Under the pieces are notes generated by a model that saw only the letters and a program-made list of their open reading frames with translations, ran no database searches and was not told the origin of the DNA. From Acidobacteriota bacterium (lineage in GTDB: Bacteria > Acidobacteriota > Vicinamibacteria > Vicinamibacterales > UBA2999), in contig VFZN01000001.1 in assembly GCA_016871195.1 (NCBI GenBank), positions 62,001 through 126,000 on the forward strand: a DNA stretch of 64,000 nt. Reading direction: 5' to 3'. Every line of letters starts with the position of its first letter. Position 1 is the first letter of the stretch. Shown here piece after piece: positions 54,513-64,000 of the stretch. Both the position numbers and the translations under genes were made by a program.

Positions 54513-56162
54513 GTGCCCGCTGAATTGCGCACCGCCATGGCACCGCTGGCGTATCTGACGCCGTCGGCCGCTCATCCTCCTGATTTCGGTACCTACGGCC
54601 TGCTGCAGGCGATGGCCGAGCCGTGGCGTCCCGTGTGGGTGGTCGGCCGATCAGAGGCCCGCGGGCTGCGGCTCGGCGTGGCGTTCGAGGGTGGCGTATC
54701 GGCCGCATCGTCACCCGACGCGGTCGCGGTGCATGCGCTGCTGCCGGCCCTGCATGCCGAGTGGCTGGGTGATCGGTCGTTCTGCGAAGAGCATGGGACG
54801 CGCTTTCCGTACGTCACCGGGTCGATGGCCACCGGCATTGCCTCGATGGACACGGTCGTCGCCGCCGCTCGTGCGGGCTTTCTGGGCTTCTACGGTGCAG
54901 GCGGTCTGAGCCTCGAGCGCGTCGTGCGCGAAGTCGAGCTGATCGCCGCGCGCCTCGCCGACATGCCCGGTGCCGCCTGGGGCGTGAATGTCATTCACTC
55001 GCCCGATCAGCCCGCGCTCGAAGATGCCCTGGTCGATGCGCTGCTCGCGCGCGGCGTGACCCGCATCGAAGCCTCGGCCTTCATGAGCCTGTCGCCCGCG
55101 ATCGTGCGCTATGCCTCGACGGGCCTGCGGCTCGATGCGCAGGGCCGCGTGGTGCGTCCGCACCGTGTGATGGCGAAGATCAGCCGCGCCGAAGTGGCCC
55201 GCCACTTCCTGCAGCCGCCGCCGGCCCCCCTGCTCGACGCACTGGTCGCGCGCGGGGCCCTGACCGCCGAGGAGGCCCGCCTCGCATCCCTCCTGCCCGT
55301 CGCCGACGATGTGACGTGCGAGTCTGATTCCGGAGGGCATACGGACCGGCGTCCGCTGGCCGTGCTGCTGCCGGTCATCCGTCAGCTGCGCGACAGCCTG
55401 ACACCCGAGGGTGGCTGGCCCCGCCCGGTGCGCATCGGTGCGGCGGGCGGGCTGGGTGATCCGGCATCGGTCGCCGCCGCGTTTGCGCTGGGTGCCGACT
55501 ATGTCGTCACCGGAACGGTCAACCAGCTGGCCATCGAATCGGGCACCTCTGATCTGGCGAGGGCGATGCTCGCGCAGGCCGGCCTGGCCGACGTCATCAT
55601 GGCTCCGGCGGCCGACATGTTCGAGATGGGCGTCGAGGTGCAGGTGCTGCGGCGGGGCACCCTGTTCGCACAGCGCGGCAAGCGGCTGTATGAGCTGTAC
55701 CGCGAACACGGGGGCATCGACGCGCTGCCTGCCGACGTCCGCGCGAAGCTCGAGCGCGAGGTCTTCCGCGCCAGCCTCAATGACATCTGGCAAGAATGCG
55801 AACGCTTCTGGCAGGGCCGTGAGCCAGCGCAGCTCGAGCGCGCGGCGCGCGATCCGCATCACCGCATGGCGCTCATCTTCCGCTGGTATCTGGGCAATTC
55901 GAACCGCTGGGCCCGCGAAGGTGTGGCCGATCGGCAGCAGGATTACCAAATCTGGTGCGGCCCTGCGATCGGGGCCTTCAATGCCTGGACGGCCGGCAGT
56001 GCGCTGGCAGCGCCATCGGCCCGCACGATTGCGCGCATCGGGCGCAGCCTGCTGGCCGGGGCCGTGCGTCTGACGCGCGCCCAGCAACTGCGCAGCGCAG
56101 GGCTGGCGGTGCCTGAGGCGGCCTTCATGACCGCCCCCCTTTCCGAGGAGAACGCGCAGTGA
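54513..56162 (+). CDS. pfaD: PfaD-type enoyl reductase of a secondary-lipid (PUFA-like) synthase
   Basis: A 549-residue PfaD, a flavin-dependent (FabK/nitropropane-dioxygenase-fold) enoyl reductase that works in trans on the synthase. VTGSMATGIASMDTVVAAARAGFLGFYGAGG, WGVNVIHSPDQPALED, and VTCESDSGGHTDRRPLAVLLP with the catalytic His276 are PfaD-typical, as are GAAGGLGDPASVAAAFALGADYVVTGTVNQ, MGVEVQVLRRGTLFAQRGKRLYELY and IWCGPAIGAFNAW. The GTG at 54513 (or ATG 54537) starts it. TGA overlaps the GTG of the next gene (GTGA). Here pfaD is first, whereas in marine EPA clusters it is usually last. Confidence 0.93.
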   Translation: MPAELRTAMAPLAYLTPSAAHPPDFGTYGLLQAMAEPWRPVWVVGRSEARGLRLGVAFEGGVSAASSPDAVAVHALLPALHAEWLGDRSFCEEHGTRFPYVTGSMATGIASMDTVVAAARAGFLGFYGAGGLSLERVVREVELIAARLADMPGAAWGVNVIHSPDQPALEDALVDALLARGVTRIEASAFMSLSPAIVRYASTGLRLDAQGRVVRPHRVMAKISRAEVARHFLQPPPAPLLDALVARGALTAEEARLASLLPVADDVTCESDSGGHTDRRPLAVLLPVIRQLRDSLTPEGGWPRPVRIGAAGGLGDPASVAAAFALGADYVVTGTVNQLAIESGTSDLARAMLAQAGLADVIMAPAADMFEMGVEVQVLRRGTLFAQRGKRLYELYREHGGIDALPADVRAKLEREVFRASLNDIWQECERFWQGREPAQLERAARDPHHRMALIFRWYLGNSNRWAREGVADRQQDYQIWCGPAIGAFNAWTAGSALAAPSARTIARIGRSLLAGAVRLTRAQQLRSAGLAVPEAAFMTAPLSEENAQ

Positions 56163-59100
56163 GTTCCACTTCCATTGCCATTGTCGGGCTGGCGTCGCTG
56201 CTGCCGGGCAGTGACGACCTGCAGGGCTTCTGGCAGAGCCTGCTCGAGGCGCGCGACTGCTTCAGTGACGTGCCCGAACAGCACTGGCGGATCGAGGATT
56301 ACTTCGATCCGAAGCCGCGGGCCAAGGACAAGACCTACGGCAAGCGCGGCGGCTTCATTCCGCATCAGCCGTTCGACGCCCTCGGCTTCGGCCTGCCGCC
56401 GTCGACCCTGCCCAGCACCGACGTTGCGCAGCTGCTCGCGCTGCTGATTGCGCAGCGCTGCCTGACTGACGCCGACCATGGCACCCCGGGCCGGTTCGAC
56501 CGTACGCGCACGGCCTGCATTCTGGGCGCGGCCGCGACGACCCAGCTGGTGGCCCACATGTCGGGCCGCATGGCGCGGCCGATGTGGAAGCAGGGCCTGC
56601 GGAACCTCGGCATGGACGAATCGCTGCTCGACAAGGCCTGCGATGCCATTGCCGATCAGTTCGTGCCGTGGCAGGAAAGCACGTTCCCCGGCCTGCTGGG
56701 CAACGTCATTGCCGGGCGCGTCGCCAACCGCTTCGATCTGGGCGGCACCAACTGCGCGCTCGATGCGGCGTGCGCCAGTTCACTGGCGGCGCTGTCGATG
56801 GCCATCAACGAACTGCGCAGCGGACAGGCCGACACGGTACTGACCGGCGGCGTCGATGCCCTCAATGACGTGCTGATGTTCCTGTGCTTCTCGCAGACAC
56901 CCGCCCTGTCGCTGTCTGGCGACTGCCGTCCCTTCAGCGATCAGGCCGACGGGACGATGCTGGGAGAGGGTGTGGCGATGCTGGCCCTGCGTCGCCTCGA
57001 GGACGCCGAGCGCGACGGCCACAAGATTTATGCGGTGATTCGCGGCCTCGGCAGCAGCTCTGACGGCCGTGCCAAGAGCGTGTATGCCCCGCGGTCGCAG
57101 GGGCAGGCCATGGCCCTGCGCCGGGCCTACGACAACGCCGGCTACGGCCCCGAGACTGTGGAACTCGTCGAAGCCCATGGCACTGGTACGGTTGCAGGTG
57201 ATGCCGCGGAATTCGGCGGGCTCACCGAAGTGTTCGGCCCTGCACGGCCCGAGGTGCGCCAGTGGTGCGCCCTGGGCTCGGTCAAGTCGCAGATTGGGCA
57301 CACCAAGGCGGCCGCCGGAGCGGCGAGCCTGGTCAAGGTGGCGCTGGCCCTCCACCACCGGATCCTGCCGCCCACCATCAAGGTCGCGCGGCCGAACCCG
57401 GCGATGAAGCTCGAGGACAGCCCGTTCTACCTGAACACCACCGTGCGTCCGTGGTTCGCGCGGACCGGTGAGGCGCGGCGCGGGTCGGTCAGCAGCTTCG
57501 GATTCGGCGGCAGCAACTTCCATGTCACCCTCGAGGAATATCGCGGGACGCATGCGGCCGCCCGCCTCGACGGCTCGCCCGTGCACCTGTGGCTGCTCGG
57601 CGAGGCGTCGGTCGACGCCATGCGGGCGCGCCTGGCGGCACTGCCGGGACAGGTGACCAGTGCGGCAGCCCTCGCCAATGCGGCACACGAGAGCCACACC
57701 GCTTTCGACCCGGGTGCGGCTGTGCGTGTGGCCCTCCTGATTGACCATCGCGACACCCTGCCAGCCGCCTGTGACGAAGCGTCGGCGCTGCTGGGCGGCA
57801 CGGTCACTCATGCACGGGGCACCCACTGCGTGGTGGGCACCGGCCCGGCGGTTGCGGCCTCATCGGTCGCCTTCCTGTTTCCGGGTCAGGGCAGCCAGTA
57901 CGTGCAGATGGGACGCGACCTGGCCATCGCCTTCCCCGACGCCTTCGCGGCGTGGGAAGCGGCAGATGCCGCGCTGCCCGCTGACGGATCGACACCCGCG
58001 CTCGGGGATGTGGTGTTCCCGCGCGCCGCCTTTGACGAGGCCGGGGTGCAGGCGCACGAGCAGCAGCTGCGCGCCACCAGCCAGGCACAACCCGCGCTGG
58101 CGGCCGCCAGCCTCGCCCAGCTGGCGCTGCTGCACCGTCTGGGTCTGAAGCCTGCAGCGGTAGCCGGACACAGCTTCGGCGAGCTGGTGGCCCTGCACAC
58201 GGCCGGCGTCTTCGACGCGACCACCCTGGTGCAGCTGGCCAGAGCCCGCGGCGCGGCCATGGAAGCCTGTGCGACAGGCGGCGAGGGTTCCCTCGGCAGC
58301 ATGCTGGCCGTGGCGTCCGATGCCGCTACCGTGCGTGCCGTGCTCGACGAGCATGGCGACGCGTCGCTGGTGCTGGCCAATGACAACCATCCGAAGCAGG
58401 CCGTGCTGAGCGGACCGGTCGACAGCCTCAAGCGCATCGAAGCGCGTCTCTCGGCCCGGGATCTGAGCTTCCAGCCCCTGAAAGTGGCGGCGGCGTTCCA
58501 CTCGCCGCTGGTCGCCCCGGCTGCCTCGGCCTTCGGCACGGCGGTGCGTGCGCGCCGCTTTGCGCCGCCGACACTGCCCGTCATCGGCAATGCCACGGCC
58601 GAACCGTATCCGACGGGGGCCAAGGCCGTGCAGACGCAGCTGGCCGATCAGCTGGCGCAGCCGGTGCGGTTCCGCGACAGTCTCGACGCGCTGTATGCGC
58701 AGGACTGCCGTGTGTTCGTGGAGGTGGGCGCCGGTGCGGTGCTGACCGGCCTGGCGTCACGGTGCCTGAAGGGCCGCGACCATGTCGCGCTCAGCCTCGA
58801 CACCCCCGGCACCCACGGGCTGCGCGCCTTCTGGCGCGGCCTCGGCGAGCTGGCGGTACTCGGGCTTCGGCTCGACTTTGCCGCACTGCACGCCTCGACC
58901 GGAACCTGGACGCCGGCGCCGCTGCCGCCCACCGGTCCGGCCGTCATCTCGGTTGGCGGTGCGAACCTCGGCAAGCCCTATCCGCCGCTGCCGGGCCAGG
59001 CGCCCGTGCGTCCGTCCCAGCGGGTGATGGAAGTGCCACTCGGCAGCGCCGGTTCCGTGCCGGTCGCGCCGCTGTCGGCTGTGACCAACGCCCCAGGGGC

Positions 59101-59878
59101 GGCACCAGGCGTGCCGACCGGGGGGCCTGTGATGTCCGGGGCCGTGTCTCCGGCTGTGCCTGCGGCTGGCGCACCTGCGCCGATGCCTGGGGCGTCGTCT
59201 GGTGTTTCATCGAGTGTGCCTGCTTCGCGAGTGCCGACCATGTCTGATCACACCGTGCCGTCTGTTCCTGTTGTCCTCCGTCCCGCGGAAGGGGCGTCTC
59301 CGATTCTCGAGGCCCAGCGCCTGACCCAGCAGGCCCTGCTGGAAAGCTTCAGCATGACGCTGCGCGGCCTGGGCGGGTCGGCCCTGCCGGTGGCCCCGGC
59401 GGCGCTGGCTGCCGCCCCGGTGATGTACGCGCCGGCGCCTGTTGCGGTGCCCGTGCCGATGCCGGCACCGGTGGCCGCGGCAGCGCCCGCTCAGGCGGCG
59501 CCCCCGGTGGCGGCCCCTGCCGCTGCTTCCGTCCCCGCGCCTGTCGCGGCCCCTGCTCCGGCGCCCGCCCCCGCTCCGGTGGCCGCCCCGGTGGCCGCGG
59601 CACCCGCCGCCCCTGCCGGCGGCTCGTCGTCGACGGTGCTGGCGATCATTGCCGAGAAGACGGGGTATCCGGTGGATGCGCTGTCGCCCGAGATGGATCT
59701 GGAAGCCGACCTCGGGATCGATTCGATCAAGCGCGTGGAGATTCTCGGGGCGGTCAATGACCGGGTGCCCGGGCTGGATGCGAGCAAGGTGTCGCCGGCA
59801 GATGTGCGTCTGGTGAGCGACCTGCTGGCGCTGCTCGGAGGCGCCCCCGCGGACCCTCAGCAGGCCGCGGCCCGGTAG
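56159..59878 (+). CDS. pfaA: PfaA-like synthase subunit: ketosynthase, acyltransferase, one acyl-carrier domain
   Basis: A 1,239-residue multidomain protein. KS at about residues 1-460: Cys205 (DAACASSL), His340 (EAHGTGT), His381 (SQIGHTKA), all present. AT at about 570-880: FLFPGQGSQY and nucleophile Ser672 (GHSFGE). A ~280-residue Ala/Pro/Val-rich linker follows, with an embedded helix (ILEAQRLTQQALLESFSMTL) that precedes the carrier domains in PUFA synthases. One ACP (about 1,160-1,232) has Ser1189 in the PUFA-type motif LGIDSIKRVEIL. KR and DH, normally on the same chain, are encoded in another frame directly downstream. Start GTG overlaps the pfaD stop. The single ACP points to a product other than EPA/DHA. 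Confidence 0.92.
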   Translation: MSSTSIAIVGLASLLPGSDDLQGFWQSLLEARDCFSDVPEQHWRIEDYFDPKPRAKDKTYGKRGGFIPHQPFDALGFGLPPSTLPSTDVAQLLALLIAQRCLTDADHGTPGRFDRTRTACILGAAATTQLVAHMSGRMARPMWKQGLRNLGMDESLLDKACDAIADQFVPWQESTFPGLLGNVIAGRVANRFDLGGTNCALDAACASSLAALSMAINELRSGQADTVLTGGVDALNDVLMFLCFSQTPALSLSGDCRPFSDQADGTMLGEGVAMLALRRLEDAERDGHKIYAVIRGLGSSSDGRAKSVYAPRSQGQAMALRRAYDNAGYGPETVELVEAHGTGTVAGDAAEFGGLTEVFGPARPEVRQWCALGSVKSQIGHTKAAAGAASLVKVALALHHRILPPTIKVARPNPAMKLEDSPFYLNTTVRPWFARTGEARRGSVSSFGFGGSNFHVTLEEYRGTHAAARLDGSPVHLWLLGEASVDAMRARLAALPGQVTSAAALANAAHESHTAFDPGAAVRVALLIDHRDTLPAACDEASALLGGTVTHARGTHCVVGTGPAVAASSVAFLFPGQGSQYVQMGRDLAIAFPDAFAAWEAADAALPADGSTPALGDVVFPRAAFDEAGVQAHEQQLRATSQAQPALAAASLAQLALLHRLGLKPAAVAGHSFGELVALHTAGVFDATTLVQLARARGAAMEACATGGEGSLGSMLAVASDAATVRAVLDEHGDASLVLANDNHPKQAVLSGPVDSLKRIEARLSARDLSFQPLKVAAAFHSPLVAPAASAFGTAVRARRFAPPTLPVIGNATAEPYPTGAKAVQTQLADQLAQPVRFRDSLDALYAQDCRVFVEVGAGAVLTGLASRCLKGRDHVALSLDTPGTHGLRAFWRGLGELAVLGLRLDFAALHASTGTWTPAPLPPTGPAVISVGGANLGKPYPPLPGQAPVRPSQRVMEVPLGSAGSVPVAPLSAVTNAPGAAPGVPTGGPVMSGAVSPAVPAAGAPAPMPGASSGVSSSVPASRVPTMSDHTVPSVPVVLRPAEGASPILEAQRLTQQALLESFSMTLRGLGGSALPVAPAALAAAPVMYAPAPVAVPVPMPAPVAAAAPAQAAPPVAAPAAASVPAPVAAPAPAPAPAPVAAPVAAAPAAPAGGSSSTVLAIIAEKTGYPVDALSPEMDLEADLGIDSIKRVEILGAVNDRVPGLDASKVSPADVRLVSDLLALLGGAPADPQQAAAR

Positions 59879-59925
59879 CTGCGGCTGCCGGACCGGCGGC
59901 CGCCTCCGCTGTCGAACGACGTGCC

Positions 59926-62274
59926 GTGCAGTGGCTGCCGGTGTCGGCACCCGGCACGCCGGTGCCGGCGTTTCCGGCGTGCCGGACGCTGGCGGTGCTC
60001 AGCGACGCCGCGGGCGGCGGCGGAGCCGCCGGCGCCGAGGCGCTGGTGCGCGCCCTGGCCGCGCGGGGCACGGCGGTCACCGTCGCCGACGCCCAGACGG
60101 CCGACCTTGTCGTCGTCACGCACGGGCTGCTGTCCCCCGGCGGCCTCGCCGCGGGCCCCTCAGGCACCCCGGATTCGGCAGCCGCCGCACGTCTGGCCGA
60201 CGCCGACGCCGGCGCCGGGGCCGGGGCCGGTGACGCACAGCGCCCCGGCCCCGCTGGGGCCTCGGCGGCCGCTGCCGCCACGACGGGTGCCGACGCGGGC
60301 CTGTCCGACGGCCCCGCCGCCGCGCCCCGTGTGCCCGTGCACGCCGACGACCCCGGCCTGGCGCGCGCGTTCGCCGATCTGACCGCCCTGGCCGCGCGGC
60401 CCGTGCCGCCGCGCCTGCTGGTCGGCCTCGCCGGGGCCTCGCCCCTGTCGGCGGGCCTCGCCGGGCTCGTGAAGACGGCGGCCCTCGAGTGGCAGGCCGC
60501 CTGGCTCTCACTCACCCTCGACACGCCCGCCCCCGCGACGCTGGTGGACGCGGCCCCGCAGGTGGCCGACGCCCTGTGCGGCGGCGGCATTGCGCGCGAG
60601 GTGCGCCTCGGCGCGCGCCGCCACGTGCGGACCCGGGTGGCCGGGCCGGCCGCTGGCGCGGCGCGCGGCCTCACGCCCGGCCCGTGGGTCATCTCGGGCG
60701 GCGCCCGCGGCGTGACGGCGAACTGCGCCGTCGCGCTCGCCCAGGCCGGCGCCTCGCGCATCCTCCTGCTCGGGCGTTCGCGCCTCGAGCCCGAGCCGGC
60801 CGTCTGCGCCGGCCTCACCGACGAGCCCGCCCTCAAGCGCGCCCTCATCGCCGCCGCTGGCCCCAGGCCCGACCTGCGCGCCATCGGACGGCAGGTCGCA
60901 TCCATCCTTGGACAGCGTGAAATCAGGGCCACCATCCATGCCCTCGAACAGGCCGGGGCCGAGGTCCGCTATGCCCCCGTCGACGTCGCCCGCCACGACG
61001 CCGTCGCCGCCGCCGTCGCCGAGGCCCGCATCGCCTGGGGTCCGTTCCGCGGACTCATCCACGGTGCCGGGGTCCTCGCCGACAAGCGCCTCGGCGAGAA
61101 GACCGCGGAACACTTCGCCAGCGTCCTGCAGCCGAAACTCGACGGCGTCGACGCCCTGCTCGCCGCGTGCGACTCCGATCCGCTCGAGCAGATCTGCTTC
61201 TTCTCCTCCGTCGCCGCACACAGCGGTAACGCCGGCCAGTCTGACTACGCCGCCGCCAACGCCGTGCTTGATGCCCTCGCCGCCACTGAACAGGAGCGAC
61301 GCGGTCCCCGGTGCCACGTGGTCTCGACCGCGTGGGGCCCGTGGGCCGGGGGCATGGTCACCGAGTCGCTCGCGCGCCACTTCACCGCCCGCGGCATCGC
61401 ACTGATTCCTCAGCACGACGGGGCACGCGCCCTCGTGCAGGAACTCGCTCACGGCACCGCCACCCAGGTCATCCTCGGGTGCGGTCTCGACCAGATGGAC
61501 GCGCCGCCCGTCGAACGCCTCCGCCTCTCACAGGCACGCTGGCCCCTGCTCGACGGCCACCGCATCGAACACGCCATCGTCCTGCCCATGACCATGGCCC
61601 TGGATGCGCTGATGGGCGTGGGACGCGAACACCTCGGCGAGGCCTGCGAACTGCGCGATCTGCGTCTCGTCAAGGGCGTGGTGCTCGGTGATGGCGAGGC
61701 CGAACTCGACGTGCGCGTCACCGCCGGAGTCAGTGGTGACGTGCAGGTGTCGCTGGTGCATCCGGAAGGCCGTCCGGCGTATCAGGCCACCGCACAGCGC
61801 GCCGACGCCCGCGAGGCCAGACCGGACGTCACGACGCTGCCCGCGAAGGACGCGACCGCACTGCCCGAGGTGTGCCGCACGCCGTATGCCGCGGCCCTCT
61901 TTCATGGACCCTCGTTCCAGGTGATTCGCGAGATCACCGTGTGCAACGACCACCGGATCGCCGCGCGGCTCTCCACGGCGGGCGCCATGGGCTGGCCCGA
62001 CGAGTGGCAGATCGACCCGGCCGCGCTCGATGGCGCCCTGCAGTTGCTGCGCGTGTGGGGCGTCGCCCGTGACGGGCGGCACAGCCTGCCCACCAGCATC
62101 GGCCGCTGCCGCGTGTGGCAGGCCTGGCCTGCACAGGGCGAGGTGGGCTGCGTGCTCGAGTGCCGCAAGGACAAAGCGTTCAAGCTGACCGCCAATGCGA
62201 GATTCTTCGACCTTGCCACTGGCGCGGCCCTGCTGTCACTCGACGGCATCGTGATGCACGTGCACGGATCATGA
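59926..62274 (+). CDS. Detached C-terminal half of PfaA: ketoreductase and dehydratase domains
   Basis: A 782-residue protein. Residues 1-260 are a structural (pseudo) KR half containing a low-complexity Ala/Gly/Asp insert (about 75-145). The catalytic KR follows (ISGGARGVTANCAVAL near 265; Ser428 and Tyr441 in FSSVAAHSGNAGQSDYAAAN). A hot-dog dehydratase is at about 530-780: His545 in LLDGHRIEHAIVLP, Asp702 in IDPAALDGALQLL. These are the C-terminal domains of PfaA. The GTG 59926 start falls in the usual linker/KR boundary wording (ERRAVQWLPVS), whose first residues lie upstream in frame with no start codon, so this is probably one gene with the preceding ORF, split by a frame change. The stop overlaps the next ATG. 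Confidence 0.82.
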   Translation: MQWLPVSAPGTPVPAFPACRTLAVLSDAAGGGGAAGAEALVRALAARGTAVTVADAQTADLVVVTHGLLSPGGLAAGPSGTPDSAAAARLADADAGAGAGAGDAQRPGPAGASAAAAATTGADAGLSDGPAAAPRVPVHADDPGLARAFADLTALAARPVPPRLLVGLAGASPLSAGLAGLVKTAALEWQAAWLSLTLDTPAPATLVDAAPQVADALCGGGIAREVRLGARRHVRTRVAGPAAGAARGLTPGPWVISGGARGVTANCAVALAQAGASRILLLGRSRLEPEPAVCAGLTDEPALKRALIAAAGPRPDLRAIGRQVASILGQREIRATIHALEQAGAEVRYAPVDVARHDAVAAAVAEARIAWGPFRGLIHGAGVLADKRLGEKTAEHFASVLQPKLDGVDALLAACDSDPLEQICFFSSVAAHSGNAGQSDYAAANAVLDALAATEQERRGPRCHVVSTAWGPWAGGMVTESLARHFTARGIALIPQHDGARALVQELAHGTATQVILGCGLDQMDAPPVERLRLSQARWPLLDGHRIEHAIVLPMTMALDALMGVGREHLGEACELRDLRLVKGVVLGDGEAELDVRVTAGVSGDVQVSLVHPEGRPAYQATAQRADAREARPDVTTLPAKDATALPEVCRTPYAAALFHGPSFQVIREITVCNDHRIAARLSTAGAMGWPDEWQIDPAALDGALQLLRVWGVARDGRHSLPTSIGRCRVWQAWPAQGEVGCVLECRKDKAFKLTANARFFDLATGAALLSLDGIVMHVHGS

Positions 62275-64000
62275 GCGCACGTGTCATGCCTATCGCCGTG
62301 GTCGGTCGCGGCACCGTACTGCCCGGCGCTCTCGACACCTCAACGCTGTGGCAGCGCATCCTGTCGCGCGATGACCTGACCGGCCCGAGCACGCGGGCGA
62401 TGTGGGGGCTGTCGCCCGCTGCCGTGTGCGACGACCCGCGCGAGCCGGCGGCCTGCGCGCGCGGCGGCTATGTCAGCGGGTTCGACCGCGTGTGGTCGCC
62501 AGAGGGCTTCAGTGTCGGCGCCGAACAGCTAGCCGCGCTGCCTGAAGGGTGGCGCTGGCTGTTGCACGCCACACGGCAGGCGCTGCGCGAGGCCGGCATC
62601 GAGTCGCCGGGCGCACGCGCAGGTCTCGTGCTGGGCTCGCTCGGCTATGCCACGCGGACATTCGCCGACACTGCAGCCCGCCGGTGGTGCGGCGATCTTG
62701 ACGCCGACAGTCCCGCACTCGCCGGACAGTACGGGGCCGTGTCATGGACCGCCGCCGCGTGCGGCCTCGATGGTCCGCGCTTCGCTCTCGACGCCGCCTG
62801 TGCCTCGGGCCTCTATGCCCTCACGGCGGCCTGCGATCTGCTCGAGTCGCGTCAGGCCGATCTCGTGGTGGCCGCAGGCCTCAATGCGGCAGACGATCTG
62901 TTCCTGCACGTCGGCTTCACCGCCCTGTCGGCGCTGAGCCGCACGGGCCGAAGCGCTCCGCTCAGCACAGAGGCCGATGGCCTGCTGCCGGCAGAGGGCG
63001 CGGCCGCGCTCGTGCTCAAGCGTCTGGATGACGCGGTCGCCGCCGGCGATCGCATCTACGGCATCGTGCGCGGAGTCGGGCTCAGCAACGACGGGCGCGG
63101 ATCGGGCCTGCTGCATCCGGCCACCGTCGGACAGCAGCGTGCCATTCGCCGCGCCTACGAAGGCACGGCGCTCACCCCCGCCGACATCCAGCTGCTGGAA
63201 TGCCATGCGACGGGCACCCTCGTGGGTGACCGCGAAGAGATTCTGAGCGTGCGCGCTGTCTTCGGCGATGCACACGAGATGGCCATCGGCTCGCTGAAGG
63301 CGCAGCTCGGGCACCTTATCACCGCCAGTGGCACAGCAGGCGTGCTCAAACTGCTCGGCGCGTTCGAACATGCACAGCGCCCACCAGCGCCTCTCGTCAG
63401 CCTGGCCCATCCCATCAACGCCCTGCAGGGCAGCCGCCTGCGCCTGCATGATGCCGCCGATGCGTGGACACCCGGGCATGCCCCGAGACGAGCGGCGATC
63501 AATGCGTTCGGCTTTGGCGGGTGCAATGCCCACGCCGTTCTGGAAGGGCCCGAAGGAGCCGACGACCTGCGCCGCACCGCGCGCCCTCGCCCCGCGACAC
63601 GCCGCGAGGCCGCGCCGGTGGCAGAGACACCATCGACAGCACCCGCACTGGCGCTGGTAGCCTGCGAGATGTCCGTCGGTGCGGCCGCTGACGTGACGAG
63701 CGTGCTGCGCGTGCTGCTGTCGCTCGATGCCGCCACGCGCCGGACCGGCGCCATCGATCTCGAGCTCAAGGGCCTAGGCTTTCCCCCAGCCGATCTCCAG
63801 CAGACCCTGCCGCAGCAGGTGCTGCTGCTGCGTGCCGCGCAGTCGCTGCGCGCGCACCTCGGTGATATCGACCGTGACCGCCTCGGGATCTTTGTCGGCA
63901 CCGATGTCGACCCTGCCGGTGCCCGGCACGGCTGCCGCTGGCGGCTGTCGCAGTATCTCGGCCGCGACACCAGCGAGGCCGAACGTGACGCGGTGGTGTC
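62271..64000 (+). CDS. pfaC: PfaC-like ketosynthase / chain-length-factor protein (partial)
   Basis: Open from ATG 62271 to the window edge (576 residues visible). The first ~425 residues are an active-looking KS: Cys177 (LDAACASGLYAL), His312 (ECHATGTLVGD) and His348 (KAQLGHLITASG). From about residue 460 a second KS-like domain begins (GFPPADLQQTLPQQVLLLRAAQ, then IFVGTDVDPAGARHGCRWRL), which matches the chain-length factor of PfaC, where two DH domains should follow beyond the window. The ATG overlaps the previous TGA (ATGA), so it belongs to the same operon. Confidence 0.88.
   Translation, partial: MSARVMPIAVVGRGTVLPGALDTSTLWQRILSRDDLTGPSTRAMWGLSPAAVCDDPREPAACARGGYVSGFDRVWSPEGFSVGAEQLAALPEGWRWLLHATRQALREAGIESPGARAGLVLGSLGYATRTFADTAARRWCGDLDADSPALAGQYGAVSWTAAACGLDGPRFALDAACASGLYALTAACDLLESRQADLVVAAGLNAADDLFLHVGFTALSALSRTGRSAPLSTEADGLLPAEGAAALVLKRLDDAVAAGDRIYGIVRGVGLSNDGRGSGLLHPATVGQQRAIRRAYEGTALTPADIQLLECHATGTLVGDREEILSVRAVFGDAHEMAIGSLKAQLGHLITASGTAGVLKLLGAFEHAQRPPAPLVSLAHPINALQGSRLRLHDAADAWTPGHAPRRAAINAFGFGGCNAHAVLEGPEGADDLRRTARPRPATRREAAPVAETPSTAPALALVACEMSVGAAADVTSVLRVLLSLDAATRRTGAIDLELKGLGFPPADLQQTLPQQVLLLRAAQSLRAHLGDIDRDRLGIFVGTDVDPAGARHGCRWRLSQYLGRDTSEAERDAVV

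Follow-up and report, generated by a model that had tools for sequence, protein, structure and literature searches.

The closest described relatives of the operon analyzed here are the pfa1-pfa2-pfa3 systems of Aetherobacter, Minicystis rosea and Sorangium cellulosum, in which the ER gene comes first and is followed by a Pfa2 of the form KS-MAT-ACP-KR-DH and a Pfa3 of the form KS-CLF-AT-DH-DH-AGPAT (PMC8436480, PMC6731297), and in which pfa2 has been described as a single gene (PMC8436480). The Type L arrangement of Shulse and Allen is close to the acidobacterial layout (PMC3098273). Split pfaA genes are also known, in Types D (Psychroflexus) and H (PMC3098273); these share with the acidobacterial operon the placement of KS-AT-ACP and KR on separate ORFs, and have been described as two genes, unlike the one-gene acidobacterial Pfa2 proposed here.

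The operon lies in a window of 64,000 nucleotides (C1:62001-126000) taken from a 3.08 Mb draft genome that is 98% complete (Table 1). It shares with the myxobacterial type the leading ER gene, a Pfa2 of KS-MAT-ACP-KR-DH, a Pfa3 of KS-CLF-AT-DH-DH-(PKS-DH)-AGPAT and a PPTase located elsewhere in the genome, and departs from it in having a single ACP, an acidobacterial host and a Pfa2 split by a -1 frame change with a slip motif and a stem-loop. This kind of synthase and its layout are already known, and it is the -1 frame change inside Pfa2 that constitutes the unusual part. The layout had been called unusual in an earlier note on this DNA, a description that does not hold: a leading pfaD, an AT fused in Pfa3 and the lack of pfaB make up the known myxobacterial or Type L layout (PMC8436480, PMC3098273), and this published precedent, together with the 311 candidate stretches with a Pfa3 relative that were found in one genome collection, from myxobacteria to mycobacteria, makes the arrangement an ordinary one. 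On the other hand, the order of the pfaD, KS-AT-ACP, KR-DH and KS-CLF ORFs given in that note is borne out by their coordinates, and all the catalytic residues it named are present (KS C205/H340/H381, AT S672, ACP S1189, KR Y441, DH H545/D702 and, numbered from the ATG at 62271, C177 of the second KS). Its assignment to a Pfa-type secondary-lipid synthase in an acidobacterium likewise stands, on the basis of the TIGR02814 match, of TIGR02813 over two ORFs (897 bits for the KS-AT part and 264 bits for the KR-DH part, each ORF scored alone falling below the cut-off of 1010), of a match to 6riw and of the genus shared with SJ750.

Table 1. Features of the pfa operon, in window positions unless a contig or locus is named.
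Feature	Position	Strand	Basis or remark
pfa1/pfaD, trans-acting enoyl reductase, 549 aa	54513..56162	+	TIGR02814 609 bits, curated cut-off 449
KS-AT-ACP ORF	56159-59878	+	ORF call
pfa2 0-frame part: KS-MAT-linker-ACP, residues 1-1233	56159..59857	+	Pfam and TIGR02813 matches, catalytic residues
Proposed slip site C_CCT	59854..59857	+	Frame-conservation switch in window, L020 and L019; C_CCY motif
Spacer CAGCA, 5 nt, slip codon to stem	59858-59862	+	
Proposed stimulatory stem-loop	59863..59901	+	Fold z-scores, same fold in three sequences
0-frame TAG, end of short form (1239 aa, KS-MAT-ACP)	59876..59878	+	
pfa2 -1-frame part: linker-KR-DH, 805 codons plus stop	59857..62274	+	Open frame without stop; KR and PS-DH matches
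KR-DH ORF from GTG 59926	59926-62274	+	ORF call
pfa3, first part in window: KS, start of CLF	62271..64000	+	Continues to C1:132472 (L010:8473)

The host is a soil-type acidobacterium that has its GTDB genus in common with the Acidobacteria MAG SJ750, the contig of which (L020) was found in genome G002 with 4800 of 4800 bases identical over the fetched stretch; a search for 16S in the host's own genome found none. The neighbors of the operon are all ordinary: genes for an aldehyde dehydrogenase and for a MatE transporter lie upstream, and a DNA gyrase B-type gene lies downstream. The third gene, the ATG of which (62271) overlaps the KR-DH stop as ATGA, runs beyond the window edge (C1:124115-132472) and encodes KS-CLF-AT-FabA DHs-PKS DH-AGPAT, as scored with Pfam/NCBIfam profiles on L010:116-8473. 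In particular, the CLF is a second KS-like stretch without the Cys motif, the best PDB match of Pfa3 (6riw, residues 197-697) spans KS and CLF, three stretches match the FabA-type DH (277 bits in all), a further match is to a PKS-type DH, and the C-terminal AGPAT matches Acyltransferase PF01553 at 2534-2661. The AGPAT motif reads NHQVAVE (residues 2542-2548, L010:7740 region), as compared with the usual NHx4D. The DNA rightward of the window contained the Pfa-type DH domains that the earlier note had proposed to seek there, and also a PfaB-like AT (Acyl_transf_1 at 823-1110) of weak PfaB similarity, with 50 bits to the PfaB family against its cut-off of 144; the reported lack of such an AT is thereby corrected, there being no separate pfaB gene but a domain fused in the third gene, past the window edge. 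The proposed search for a PPTase also returned two candidates, located not to the right of the window but away from the operon on contigs C7 and C22. The operon is best read as a pfa1-pfa2-pfa3 iterative long-chain fatty acid synthase of myxobacterial type, probably one for polyunsaturated products. By analogy with the myxobacterial enzymes, a natural guess is a long-chain PUFA that the AGPAT domain would place on phospholipid, and the different long-chain lipid suggested in the earlier note is conjectural.

The KS-AT-ACP and KR-DH ORFs had been regarded as separate genes, and comparison with relatives speaks instead for two frames of one gene. Conservation of the 0-frame protein ends at Pro1233 (59855-59857), though that frame runs to 59878, and the -1 frame is open from the slip codon into KR-DH without a stop, giving a joined protein of 2038 aa. 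The frame switch falls at the identical codon in three separate assemblies, those of the window, SJ750 (L020) and L019 (ACCCTCAGC, ACCCTCAGC and ACCCTTAGC, respectively), the KR-DH parts of which are 61-69% identical, L019 being the 61%-identical relative. From the slip to the first possible start, the -1-frame sequences (SAGRGPVAAAAGPAAASAVERRA, SAGRCPVAAAPESAAASAVERRD and LAGRWPVASAAEPTAVHTIERSV) align without gaps, and in the 23 codons compared between the window and L019 the -1 frame retains 12 of 23 residues and the two other frames 4 and 6, the differences by codon position numbering 7/5/16. The first start in the -1 frame lies inside conserved sequence, at codons 23, 26 and 22 in the window, L020 (where it is TTG) and L019, and a start codon at one common place was sought in these three sequences and not found. 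The 0-frame stop directly follows the slip codon in L019 and lies 7 codons past it, not adjacent, in the window. At the transition, the window carries the tetramer C_CCT in register, followed 5 nt downstream of the slip codon, the usual distance for a stimulatory structure, by a stem-loop with z of -3.10 (-3.46 in L020 and -6.04 in L019); the fold is the same in all three, and their alignment contains only 2 compensatory pairs. In E. coli, C_CCY is a frameshift-prone tetramer that is weak as a slip motif, C_CC.Y ranking behind A_AA.G and U_UU.Y (PMC4066793). The L019 contig (VGQX01000067.1) sits in a MAG labelled Cyanobacteria, pointing to mis-binning or transfer.

Pfa2 ACP-KR junctions were gathered from named genomes, Acidobacteriota, Mycobacterium, Myxococcota and plasmids, yielding 154 distinct junctions, 127 fused and 27 not fused. 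Exclusion of four of the latter (one with an in-frame stop and three with frame breaks that looked like errors or were incomplete) left 23 usable splits, in which the frame change is -1 in 21 and +1 in 2. Breaks in the ACP, at gaps or in multiple were left out as errors or gaps (L085, L119, L172, L087 and L072), as was L183, with ACP and KR in one frame, and the short KR ORFs that occur at contig ends in many Myxococcota and mycobacterial genomes were not scored as splits. A canonical heptamer lies within 4 codons of the stop in 11 of the 21 -1 splits, and C_CCY occurs in 10 of the 21, comprising the window clade and seven members of one Myxococcota clade; the in-register heptamer background in fused controls is 0.33% per codon, and the motif search was made after the first cases had been seen. 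The heptamers before the stop are A_AAA_AAG (L098, L262 and L263), A_AAA_AAA (L023), G_GGA_AAG (L022, L265 and L142), G_GGA_AAC (L264), C_CCT_TTC (L070 and L257) and C_CCT_TTT (L066), G_GGA_AAG and A_AAA_AAG being among the most efficient slip motifs in E. coli (PMC4066793). The 60 nt past the slip fold with a mean z of -2.45, against -0.21 in 116 fused controls. Since locus counts are not independent, the comparison is fairer when made by lineage. On the KR tree the split state requires 13 changes, at least 12 of them forced by well-supported branches, and by our count the -1 change occurs in about 11 independent lineages, in 9 of which the stop is adjoined by a canonical slippery heptamer.

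The two +1 cases, L052 without a motif and L081 at an A10 run, fit the frameshift model poorly, and L081, as well as the A-run cases L098 and L023, could reflect transcriptional slippage or sequencing error. The +1 change of L081 (L081:7735-7760, Elusimicrobia) lies in the ACP-KR linker; that genome also contains a second, fused copy (L140), in which AAAAAAA is accompanied by an early -1 stop and a stem. Among the mycobacterial splits, L066 and L070 seem to stem from recent indels next to a slippery site that was already present.

A mirror form of this arrangement is found in fused genes. At the ACP-KR boundary of fused mycobacterial Pfa2 (CCCTTTTGA), where CCCTTTT is conserved, the sequence CCT TTT GA is such that a -1 slip leads at once to TGA. 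CCT TTT is kept in 16/16 mycobacterial genes, and both codons are rare in the KR-DH part (TTT in 12 of 185 Phe codons and CCT in 19 of 461 Pro codons). A long stem comes next, with z between -3.2 and -9.8; its pairing holds in 94.6% of cells, against 31-45% when slid, with 20 doubly changed (compensated) cells against 7.2 in shuffles, none of 500 shuffles reaching as high. Among fused genes as a whole, 24 of 6605 codons at the junction, compared with 3 of 69014 KR-DH codons, have a heptamer followed by a -1 stop no more than two codons on, and the junction cases amount by lineage to about eight. Sister genomes of Persicobacter carry a split (L142) and a fused (L143) gene with GGGAAAG in both. 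It seems to be the two-length output, rather than one arrangement, that is kept. Two fused Pfa2 genes nested in the split Myxococcota clade (L274 and L275, from G993 and G907) keep CCCTTTT and the same GC hairpin, with the -1 stop 17 codons off, and suggest that the long form has switched from one frame to the other.

The sequences show a conserved frame change accompanied by slip motifs and stems, and we infer that ribosomal slippage would give short and long Pfa2 at a fixed ratio, as in dnaX. In the window, we propose, with a probability of about 0.83, a pfa1-2-3 synthase the Pfa2 of which is made through a programmed -1 frameshift at C_CCT (59854-59857). The 0-frame Pro codon CCT (59855-59857) would re-pair to CCC under stimulation by the stem-loop at 59863-59901, the next -1 codon being TCA (59857-59859); ribosomes remaining in frame would stop at 59878 and release a short KS-MAT-ACP protein of 1239 aa, and slipping ribosomes would make the full KS-MAT-ACP-KR-DH protein of 2038 aa. 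Both forms would assemble with Pfa1 and Pfa3, and the proportion of ACP/KS to KR-DH would then be fixed by how often ribosomes slip. The tau/gamma system of dnaX is alike in its slippery motif, downstream stem-loop, -1 frame and two products from one gene, and its A_AAA_AAG is present in L098, L262 and L263. It differs in that split Pfa2 usually has the long product in the -1 frame and codes for a lipid megasynthase; the fused Pfa2 of mycobacteria, and a few others, have the dnaX-like sense, the 0 frame being long and the -1 frame stopping at once. The survey suggests that about 11 lineages either acquired or retained this device, with the mirror form in mycobacteria and a few others. With somewhat less assurance than for the window itself, we regard it as likely that Pfa2-type megasynthases of Acidobacteriota, Myxococcota, Mycobacteriaceae, Bacteroidota, Planctomycetota and Pseudomonadota are produced in two lengths, one including KR-DH and one lacking it, through a programmed -1 frameshift where ACP meets KR, the frame of the long form having flipped repeatedly and the two-product output having been kept.

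Split pfaA genes being already known (PMC3098273), the ORFs might instead reflect true gene fission, in which KS-MAT-ACP and KR-DH would be independent translation products and KR-DH would be made by reinitiation or from its own start at GTG 59926, as in Types D and H. Some relatives do have a start at or near the stop (GTGA in L022, TTGA in L070 and an SD-like GGGGGG before GTG in L256), but L265 has GGGAAAG and then TAA without a start there, L262 lacks a start for 57 codons and its relative L263 for 18, and in the window clade the -1 frame is conserved as protein from the slip codon, ahead of any start. Fission, moreover, leaves unexplained the slippery heptamers, the stem-loops, the 21:2 bias to -1 and the mirror arrangement of fused mycobacterial genes, and we deem it unlikely, although reinitiation at GTG 59926 may supply a share of KR-DH protein alongside the proposed frameshift.

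A false 1-nt shift introduced by sequencing or assembly, for instance through collapse of a tandem ACP array, might be suspected from the single ACP of Pfa2, from the many relatives with contigs that end in the ACP array and from the error-like breaks in L085 and L172. The shift, however, lies past the ACP and coincides with a slip motif that is conserved, as is its stem, two assemblies show one ACP with linkers on both sides, and three separate assemblies agree on site and bases; assembly error was rejected as the cause of the split on this agreement and, largely refuted by L020 and L019, is very improbable. Slighter still is the chance that pfa2 is a pseudogene and the frame change mere damage: frame breaks are a usual sign of decay, but this one persists between proteins that are 61% identical, with codon-position bias both before and after it, a conservation that refutes the idea, the catalytic residues are all intact, and PfaD, Pfa2 and Pfa3 contain no other frame break.

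No description of frameshifting in PKS, PUFA synthase, ketosynthase, ACP or biosynthetic clusters was found in the open-access papers searched. If the proposed frameshift is real, a ribosomal slip sets the ratio of carrier and condensing to reducing parts in PUFA synthases, a control layer found in none of the open-access papers searched on these enzymes, and the annotation of many pfa2 genes as split or pseudogenized would be accounted for. Slip site and stem would then offer a simple handle to tune heterologous PUFA production, and programmed frameshifting in cellular genes would gain a recurrent, independently evolved case.

The ACP count is provisional, because tandem ACPs break assemblies in relatives: this assembly has only one ACP, as the earlier note stated, and two of the three assemblies of the window clade show one with linkers either side. 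Short-read contigs of many genomes (e.g. G546, G450, G456 and G1013) end inside the pfa2 ACP array, and database ACP counts and split calls are therefore unreliable there. Finally, contig C22 carries a second type I synthase cluster of the host genome (L007:2309-13716, genome G000), comprising genes for an AT-KS..KR-DH protein and a two-ACP-plus-SDR protein, a DUF1702 gene, a halogenase/FAD-like gene and a PPTase-like stretch.
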